Shown one piece after another: positions 26,523-46,725 of a stretch of DNA of 64,000 nt. Source of the DNA: a halophilic archaeon SHRA6 (GTDB lineage Archaea > Halobacteriota > Halobacteria > Halobacteriales > Haloferacaceae); contig SOPS01000004.1 in the NCBI GenBank assembly GCA_005239175.1, positions 620,001 to 684,000 of the forward strand. Direction: 5' to 3'. The stretch's first letter is position 1, and every line of letters starts with the position of its first letter. The notes under the pieces are model-generated. The model saw only the letters and a program-made list of their open reading frames with translations. It searched no databases and was not told the origin of the DNA. The position numbers were made by a program, and so were the translations under genes.

Positions 26523-27077
26523 TCAGTTGTCGCTCTTAGAAGATTCGTCGTCGTTGTCAGCCGTGGCTTCGTCTTCGTCGTTGTCAGCCGTGGCTTCGTC
26601 GTCACTCACAGCGTCAGTCTCGCTATCGTCTTCAACTGTGTCAGCGTCGACTGCATCATCGTCACCCTCAACGTCACTCTCGGCGTTGTCGGTTTCAACG
26701 TCCGTCTCCTCGTTGTCGGCTCCAGCGTCCGTTTCGCCATCGTCTGTCTCATCCACAGCGTGTTCGTGCTGGTCCACGTCATGGTCAGATTCGTCGTGTT
26801 CGATCGGCTCGGAGTCGTCGAGGAATGCTTGTCCCTGTGAGTAGACCGGTTTGGTTTTCTCATCCCCGGCGATCGCCTTCCCAGAGAGATACGTCAACAC
26901 GCCGAGCGCGATGAACATGATGATCATGATGGCGTACATTATCCCTGAGGAGCGAATGTCAAAGCCCCAGGGACTCACAACCGCGAAAACGACGATGAAG
27001 GTGAGAATGATCCCCAACGGAATGAAGTTCACCGTCAGGTCAAGGAGCGTCTCCTTGTCGAATATCTTCGATTCCAT
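26523..27077 (-). CDS. membrane protein with long acidic tail (DUF6684-like)
   Basis: A 184-residue protein. The first 85 residues hold two membrane helices (FIPLGIILTFIVVFAVVSPWGF and IMYAIMIIMFIALGVLTYLSG). The remaining 100 are a low-complexity Asp/Glu/Ala tail with near-repeats of EDEATADND. From memory the membrane part matches DUF6684, which accompanies haloarchaeal oxidase genes. It is 86 bases upstream of coxA on the same strand, so it may be a small oxidase subunit; unproven. The tail is probably disordered and adapted to high salt. Confidence 0.75.
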   Translation of the reverse strand: MESKIFDKETLLDLTVNFIPLGIILTFIVVFAVVSPWGFDIRSSGIMYAIMIIMFIALGVLTYLSGKAIAGDEKTKPVYSQGQAFLDDSEPIEHDESDHDVDQHEHAVDETDDGETDAGADNEETDVETDNAESDVEGDDDAVDADTVEDDSETDAVSDDEATADNDEDEATADNDDESSKSDN

Positions 27078-27649: not shown

Positions 27650-27853
27650 TTACGGCAGCGAGACACCGTGGCGAATAAGAAAGTCGTTCACGGCTTTGAT
27701 TTCCACGGGACTCCCGATAATCCGGTAGTGACTGTCGCCGGCTGTACAGACCGTCACCGTGTAGTCGGCTTCGAGTTTCGATCGGATACCGTTGAGTTCG
27801 CCACAGGGTAGGACGATCTGCGTGCTGTCACGCAGCCGCGAGGGATCCGGCAT
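27650..27853 (-). CDS. small conserved haloarchaeal protein (VNG_1110C-like)
   Basis: A 67-residue protein starting MPDPSRLRDSTQIVLPCGELNG and ending IIGSPVEIKAVNDFLIRHGVSLP. The C-terminal GSPVEIKA...FLxRHGV pattern resembles the VNG_1110C family of small haloarchaeal proteins, recalled from memory; function unknown. A longer frame to 28021 runs through a repeat array and is rejected as coding. It is convergent with nothing and sits between the cox group and a GTPase gene facing the other way. Confidence 0.75.
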   Translation of the reverse strand: MPDPSRLRDSTQIVLPCGELNGIRSKLEADYTVTVCTAGDSHYRIIGSPVEIKAVNDFLIRHGVSLP

Positions 27854-27929
27854 TGAGTCTCGAGTAGAGAGTGTCAGTGGCCCAGTATAATAGTGTCGAG
27901 TTCTCCCTGCTAGGTGTCCAGTCGGGGGC

Positions 27930-28057
27930 TGAAAATCGATTTGAACAGTAGGTCCATCCGTGTGATGCCGGTTCAAGCAGTACGTCAATTGGCTGAAGAT
28001 CGATTCAAAGAGCAAGTTCATTGGGTGAAGATCGATTCAAAGAGCAAGTTCATTGGG
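27930..28057. repeat. four-copy direct-repeat array, 32-bp period, upstream of a GTPase gene
   Basis: Units occupy 27930-27961, 27962-27993, 27994-28025 and 28026-28057. The last two are identical. By eye the first matches them at 22 of 32 positions and the second at 18 of 32. A fifth partial unit begins at 28058. The array ends 55 bases before the GTPase start codon. There are no spacers, so this is a tandem array rather than CRISPR. Confidence 0.8.
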
Positions 28058-28112
28058 TGAAGATCGGCCCGAAAGAACACCTTTTTCGACGGCGACGGCG
28101 GACACTCGGCTA

Positions 28113-29222
28113 ATGGGACTGGAGGAAGAGATCGAGGCGATCGAGGACGAGATCGCCGCCACGCCGTACAACAAGGCGACGGAGGCCCACATCGGACGGC
28201 TGAAGGCGAAACTCGCCGAAAAAAAAGAGAAACTCGAAAACCAGTCCTCCGCCGGCGGCGGGACAGGATATGCCGTCGAAAAACACGGTGACGCGACCAT
28301 CGCACTCGTCGGATTTCCGAGCGTCGGCAAGTCGACGCTGATCAACGCGCTCACGAACGCCGACAGCGAGATCGGCGAGTACGAGTTCACGACCCTCGAC
28401 GTCAACCCAGGGATGCTGCAGTACAACGGAGCGAATATCCAGGTACTCGACGTTCCGGGACTCATCGAGGGAGCCGCAAGCGGCCGCGGCGACGGCAAAG
28501 AGGTGCTTTCAGTCGTTCGAACAGCTGATCTCGCGGTGTTCATCCTTTCGGTCTTCGAGATCGAACGGTACGATCGGCTCAAAGAAGAGCTATACAAAAA
28601 CAAGATCCGTCTCGACACCGATCCGCCGAGCCTCCACGTCGCAAAGCGCGGGAAGGGCGGCATCAAAGTAAACAAGACAGATTCCGTCGAACTGGACGAG
28701 GAAACGATCAAGGACGTCCTCAGAGAGTACGGCTACGTCAACGCCGAGGCGACGATCCGCGGCAATCCGTCGATCGATGAGCTGATCGACGCCCTCATGG
28801 ACAATCGGGTGTACATCCCGTCAATCGTGACGGTCAACAAAGCCGATCTCATCGACGAAGATTATCTGCCGACGGTGAACGAGAATCTCAGAGAACACGG
28901 GCTCGATCCCGATGAGGTGACGTTCATCTCTGCCGAGAAAGAGAAAGGGCTCGAGGCGCTCAAAGAGCGGATCTGGGACGCGCTTGGACTCGTGCGCGTC
29001 TACATGGACAAGCCCGGACGCGGCACCGATTACGAGGAACCGCTCGTCATGTTCGAGGGATCGACCGTCGAAGACGCCTGCAAGAAACTCGGCAAGGACT
29101 TCGAGAACCGGTTCAGGTTCGCCCGAGTGTCAGGCCCGAGCGCGAAACACGACGACCAGCAAGTTGGCAAAGGTCACGTACTCGAAGACGAGGATGTCCT
29201 CCGTATCATCGCCCGCCGGTGA
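28113..29222 (+). CDS. DRG/Obg-family GTP-binding protein with TGS domain
   Basis: A 369-residue translation-associated GTPase. The N-terminal 50 residues are a charged helix typical of DRG. G1 is GFPSVGKS at 67-74, G3 is in LDVPGLIEGAASGRGDGKE, and G4 is TVNKADLI. A C-terminal TGS domain (RVYMDKPGRGTDYEEPLVM...GKGHVLEDEDVLRII) contacts RNA in homologues. The start MGLEEEIEAIEDEI is chosen; upstream codons fall in the repeat region. Archaeal and eukaryotic DRG proteins act on ribosomes. Confidence 0.92.
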   Translation: MGLEEEIEAIEDEIAATPYNKATEAHIGRLKAKLAEKKEKLENQSSAGGGTGYAVEKHGDATIALVGFPSVGKSTLINALTNADSEIGEYEFTTLDVNPGMLQYNGANIQVLDVPGLIEGAASGRGDGKEVLSVVRTADLAVFILSVFEIERYDRLKEELYKNKIRLDTDPPSLHVAKRGKGGIKVNKTDSVELDEETIKDVLREYGYVNAEATIRGNPSIDELIDALMDNRVYIPSIVTVNKADLIDEDYLPTVNENLREHGLDPDEVTFISAEKEKGLEALKERIWDALGLVRVYMDKPGRGTDYEEPLVMFEGSTVEDACKKLGKDFENRFRFARVSGPSAKHDDQQVGKGHVLEDEDVLRIIARR

Positions 29223-41481: not shown

Positions 41482-41506
41482 GTTGGTAATAGCGTTCGAT
41501 CGAATC

Positions 41507-41602
41507 GTGCACAAAAAGAGGCTTCCGGCAGGCTAACCGTGCACAAAAAGAGGCTCCCGGCAGGCTAACCGTACACAACAAGAGCCTCCGACGTGCAGGC
41601 TA
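41507..41602. repeat. three-copy direct-repeat array, 32-bp period, between convergent genes
   Basis: Units at 41507-41538, 41539-41570 and 41571-41602. The first two differ at a single base (TTCCGG versus TCCCGG); the third is degenerate but keeps GTxCACAAxAAGAG and the distal GCAGGCTA in phase. No spacers. It fills the gap between the 3' ends of a DUF7123-like gene and a wHTH gene and could contribute to termination. Confidence 0.8.
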
Positions 41603-44280: not shown

Positions 44281-44682
44281 TTAGACCGCCGTGAGGATAA
44301 CGACGACAGTCAACGCGACCCCGAGCACAACAAACGCCGCGTTCTCCAGAGAGATCTGCTCGGGAACGATCGGCATCGCTTCTGGAGCATCGAGAGCGTC
44401 CTCGTCGGTTGGTGGTTCATCAGCAGGGCTCACGCTCTTTTCGAAGCTCACATCGTCCCCGTCGTCGAACCTCGCGTTGTCCCCGTCGTCGAACCTCGCG
44501 TTGTCCCCGTCGTCGAACCTCGCGTTGTCCCCGTCGCCGAGCCTCGCGTTGTCCCCGTCGTCGAACCTCGCGTTGTCCGCTTCGGTGGCTCTCACGTCGT
44601 CCACTTGATTGAACGGCACGTCGTTTTCGTCTTCAATCGCAGTGGAGTGATCGTCCGGACGATCGCGATCGGATTCTCGCAT
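44281..44682 (-). CDS. acidic repeat protein with C-terminal membrane anchor (DUF7312-like)
   Basis: A 133-residue protein. Residues 36-75 are five 8-residue repeats, DNARFDDG with one DNARLGDG variant, followed by a Pro/Asp-rich linker and a single C-terminal helix (ISLENAAFVVLGVALTVVVILTAV). The tail-anchored layout and its place directly upstream of NfeD and stomatin suggest a membrane scaffold partner. The helix region recalls haloarchaeal DUF7312 from memory. Extension upstream of ATG 44682 is rejected as its composition is not halophilic (Cys, Lys, Trp). Confidence 0.7.
   Translation of the reverse strand: MRESDRDRPDDHSTAIEDENDVPFNQVDDVRATEADNARFDDGDNARLGDGDNARFDDGDNARFDDGDNARFDDGDDVSFEKSVSPADEPPTDEDALDAPEAMPIVPEQISLENAAFVVLGVALTVVVILTAV
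44458..44577. repeat. five-copy in-frame 24-bp minisatellite
   Basis: Five exact-length 24-bp units occupy 120 bases and encode the octapeptide repeat. Four units are identical or near-identical in DNA; the second from the 5' end of the gene carries changes giving LG. Copy number is likely to vary between strains. Confidence 0.9.
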
Positions 44683-46574: not shown

Positions 46575-46661
46575 TCGTTCGGGATTGGATGCGCGCATCA
46601 TCAAGAGATGAGCGTGGATGCACGAATCCCTGAGAGATGAGCGTGGATGCACGAATCCCTG
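46575..46661. repeat. three-copy direct-repeat array, 29-bp period, upstream of pyk
   Basis: Units 46604-46632 and 46633-46661 are identical. A degenerate unit at 46575-46603 keeps GGATGC in phase at 46587 (versus 46616 and 46645). The array lies between the 3' end of the DoxX gene and the start of pyk on the same strand and contains no spacer. Confidence 0.75.
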
Positions 46662-46725
46662 AGAATTGTCTCAAAAGGTCTGTCTATCACAATAAAATAG
46701 TGGTCGAAAACAGAGACAGAACGGC

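Follow-up and report, generated by a model that had tools for sequence, protein, structure and literature searches.

A 32-bp tandem array between divergent promoters upstream of a DRG-type GTPase gene in Halalkalirubrum and its likely nature as an intergenic minisatellite

The array described here lies in a 64,000-nucleotide stretch of DNA, referred to throughout as the window, from a 3.36 Mb haloarchaeal genome whose species falls within Halalkalirubrum. It fills the spacer between two conserved, divergently oriented putative promoters, one serving a small gene on the minus strand and the other a GTPase gene on the plus strand, the core promoter block of the latter being conserved beyond the genus. 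The features of the locus are as follows, with identities between units given relative to the unit at 27992 in the register that begins at 27928.

27650-27853, minus strand: small divergent gene, VNG_1110C-like protein (PF24397), 67 aa
27886-27898, minus strand: putative core promoter serving the small divergent gene, reading CGACACTATTATA on that strand (block TATAATAGTGTCG), conserved among relatives
27928-27959, plus strand: unit 1, degenerate, matching unit 3 at 23/32 and its ortholog in Halalkalirubrum salinum at 26/32
27960-27991, plus strand: unit 2, the most degenerate, 18/32 to unit 3 and 19/32 to its H. salinum ortholog
27992-28023, plus strand: unit 3 (32/32, self), with a single mismatch to unit 4 and identical to it in an alternative register
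28024-28055, plus strand: unit 4 (31/32), the apparently recently gained copy (the duplicate being unit 3 or unit 4), without H. salinum counterpart
28056 to about 28079, plus strand: partial fifth unit, its 5' half resembling the array units, extending into the GTPase promoter at its BRE
28071-28089, plus strand: GTPase core promoter, GAAAGAACACC-TTTTTCGA (block GAAAGAACACCTTTTTCGA), 30 bp before the ATG, predicted from position and conservation
About 28113-29222, plus strand: DRG-type GTPase, 369 aa, with MMR_HSR1, MMR_HSR1_Xtn and TGS domains, a content that fits the DRG family

Next to the two genes flanking the array come genes for DUF7541 and DUF6684 proteins. The DUF6684 gene carries 27-bp in-frame repeats of its own in the acidic C-terminal part (window 26548-26719), and this stretch gives a poor, gapped alignment with H. 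salinum.

The tandem array upstream of the GTPase gene is real. A first-pass annotation made from the sequence alone had described four full 32-bp units and a partial fifth, the full units being placed here at 27928-28055, and Tandem Repeats Finder (TRF) reports a period of 32, 2.5 copies and a 97% match at 27988-28066. The identities of 22/32 and 18/32 estimated by eye for the two degenerate units were about right, the values being 23/32 and 18/32 in the register used here and 24/32 and 17/32 in the alternative one; the other two units, reported as identical, are exactly so in the alternative register and match at 31/32 in the 27928 register. The graded decay that was also reported does not strictly hold, with the most distal unit being nearer to the consensus than the second. 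For the degenerate copies the annotation had named shuffled sequence as the critical comparison, and both exceed within-unit shuffles (p<1e-5 for the 23/32 unit, p=2e-4 for the 18/32 unit), as does the partial unit over its first 26 bases (p=3e-3). Outside the array, chance matches to the unit within the 64-kb window reach 19/32 at most, and a search of the genome allowing up to three mismatches returned no other occurrence. The units of the array follow one another head to tail in non-coding DNA and match one another better than chance. It was placed directly upstream of the GTPase start, and it does lie upstream, but it ends in the BRE/TATA region about 30 bp short of the ATG and does not touch the start codon.

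A mechanically called minus-strand ORF (27650-28021) runs into the array, which would be in keeping with the array forming an RNA element or belonging to a coding sequence, a reading that is considered extremely improbable. The start of the small gene at 27853 is conserved, lies inside a conserved block and has its own putative promoter, and the longer ORF was rejected as the gene start; the unit length of 32 is also not a multiple of 3. The homologous array in H. salinum (L002:1348-1459) was predicted to fold more stably than all 200 shuffles (z=-3.1), but for the array in the window neither strand gave a more stable fold than its shuffles (z=+0.3 and +1.4), and the stability in H. salinum probably arose by chance, in a spacer for which transcription is unlikely. 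An Rfam search of the array gave nothing above threshold, with one sub-threshold match falling outside the full units.

The closest relative compared was H. salinum, placed in the same genus by the search and with a GTPase protein 97% identical, followed by Natronocalculus amylovorans (88% identical); the comparison covers one congener and one genome per species, with a crude gene map and sampled genome stretches. The homologous array in H. salinum is exactly 32 bp shorter, the first unit and the promoter spanning 111 bp there as compared with 143 bp in the window, and the 32-bp period is kept without indels in both species. All H. salinum units are degenerate and no near-identical pair is present. 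The orthologous units match at 26/32, 19/32 and 25/32, as compared with 31/32 between units 3 and 4, which suggests that the gain of one unit was recent, and as the near-identical pair is missing from H. salinum, the gain would have occurred in the lineage of the window's species after the two species separated. Homogenization of two older copies is a possible alternative, which would need more steps. The alignment of the homologous region that the first-pass annotation had proposed does reveal a change in copy number, and its suggestion of an old array still being renewed agrees with an array common to both species that has an extra near-identical unit in one of them. Both promoters are present in Natronocalculus, with no array, and among the relatives examined the array upstream of the GTPase gene was seen only in Halalkalirubrum. 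Relatives with both promoter motifs recognized at the usual place have promoter-to-promoter spacers of 51–185 bp.

Of the 96 positions compared between orthologous units of the two species, 26 have changed (73% identity), which is about the identity at fourfold-degenerate sites of the GTPase gene (71%), whereas 60-bp segments at the two flanking promoters are 95–100% identical. The conservation of units for which the annotation had also proposed to look is thus not seen. Column by column, the changes are evenly spread with no conserved binding core, and 13 unit columns are unchanged between the species where about 12.4 would be expected for 26 random changes. Judged from these alignments, the units appear to drift at the synonymous, neutral rate without sign of a protected core, although this describes the average unit and may be compatible with a single short site in use.

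These rates bear on the possibility that the array is a multi-site upstream operator, in which a regulator bound to every 32-bp unit would occupy the same helical face throughout and the number of units would tune expression. The array does lie directly upstream of the BRE, with units 3 and 4 about 60–120 bp before the ATG; its period is close to integral in helical terms (32/10.5 = 3.05 turns), and it is common to two species. Against this, the units change as fast as synonymous sites and none of their columns is constrained, the longest mismatch-free dyad within the unit is 4+4 bp, and the unit has no other copies in the genome. The array is also unseen outside the genus, in relatives whose spacer length appears free, and the dozens of unrelated arrays elsewhere in the genome, described below, have no helical preference. 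As for an iteron array of a replication origin, no initiator gene (orc1/cdc6 or rep) adjoins the array, the neighbors being the GTPase, VNG_1110C-like, DUF7541 and DUF6684 genes. The operator or iteron option of the first-pass annotation is therefore unsupported, and regulation through the units is unlikely.

The fifth, partial unit blends into the BRE, which raises the question of whether the GTPase core promoter (BRE and TATA) was itself copied in tandem and the copies then degenerated into the units, which would provide several weak starts. The 5' flank of the BRE matches the units in both species (p 0–0.012), with the exception of the most degenerate unit, but the 3' halves of the units match the core promoter no better than shuffles do (p 0.09–1.0), and so no recognizable TATA-like element is present in the Halalkalirubrum units. 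In this shuffle comparison the 3' halves lend no support to a copying of the entire core promoter, and this origin is regarded as very unlikely. Since the flank is unit-like and the 3' halves are not TATA-like, the array probably started from the sequence immediately preceding the GTPase promoter. A promoter triplication does exist in Natribaculum breve (L071 about 2895-2975; G099:C1:3010821-3010888), where the DRG core promoter is present as three tandem copies repeating every 26 bp (GGAAATGGTTTTTCGG, GGAAATGGGTTTCCGG and GGAAAGGGTTTTTCGG), and where the motif has no occurrence elsewhere in the genome. This represents a natural tandem (predicted) core promoter before the same DRG gene.

Tandem arrays of this kind are common in the host genome. 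With TRF and a crude ORF map, 25 non-coding arrays with periods of 18–60 were found in 464 kb around the window, and a further 800 kb from another contig brought this to 54 in 1.264 Mb, or about one per 23 kb in the sampled genome, as compared with four in 800 kb of third-order Markov sequence. Examples include the following.

Window 41506-41589: non-coding array
Window 46586-46664: non-coding array
G000:C3:470843: non-coding array

The units of these arrays are mutually unrelated as judged by eye. The periods of coding arrays are nearly all multiples of 3, whereas those of the non-coding arrays are not. Within the window, a stretch called coding holds a 24-bp repeat of 5.8 copies (44441-44578), which probably encodes a peptide repeat, given that its length is a multiple of 3. 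There is no preference for a 10.5-bp helical phase among the 54 non-coding periods (Rayleigh p=0.23); the commonest is 32, with 32–33 bp together accounting for 12 of the 54. Array density is 3.6–5.4 per 100 kb in the host genome, 1.4–2.9 in H. salinum and 0.5–3.5 in control stretches of other haloarchaea, and the host genome is thus array-rich though not unique. A second 32-bp array (G000:C3:549026) is likewise exactly one unit shorter in H. salinum. The array at G000:C3:724030 is essentially missing from that species, and neither the one at 470843 nor the one at 806164 could be aligned cleanly with it.

The array is very likely an ordinary intergenic minisatellite (variable-number tandem repeat, VNTR) between divergent promoters, with its copies arising through slippage or unequal recombination, and the simple slippage that the first-pass annotation had offered as its second option fits best. 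The indel-free persistence of the 32-bp period in both species and the predominance of 32–33 bp among the non-coding periods sit less easily with this reading. A short stretch beside the GTPase promoter would have been duplicated in tandem in the Halalkalirubrum lineage, and the copies would then have diverged through point mutation at the neutral rate. Copy number would shift in single-unit steps, through replication slippage or unequal recombination between copies, with the latest step being the gain of one unit in the window's species. If slippage supplies variation of this kind, the number of units could be a tuning knob, slow in its evolution, on the GTPase promoter or the divergent neighbor, and the recent gain would then have changed expression, but this is judged very unlikely. 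A tidy array before a gene is common background in this genome and, taken alone, does not point to regulation. The two Halalkalirubrum species offer a convenient pair in which to follow the birth, one-unit growth and decay of small haloarchaeal tandem arrays.

Prokaryotic satellites have already been surveyed (PMC6749651), and no paper was found on such arrays in Halalkalirubrum. The array shares with iterons and multi-site operators its tandem units of a few tens of bp beside a functional site, but differs from them in its neutral drift, in having neither a conserved unit core nor a clear dyad, and in coming without a recognized replication gene or cognate binding protein. Among haloarchaea, differences between strains in the copy number of short tandem repeats have been described for Haloquadratum walsbyi and for Halobacterium NRC-1 and R1, as has a 133-bp rRNA promoter deletion through a 27-bp direct repeat (PMC3119063). 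Those indels come from comparisons of strains and are mostly deletions, whereas the array in the window points to a gain between species. With prokaryotic intergenic minisatellites and VNTRs generally, it has in common short head-to-tail non-coding units, a unit sequence that is specific to the locus, and differences of whole units between close relatives; it departs from them in being of few copies (about 4.5) and partly decayed, and in being compared between species, of which there are two.
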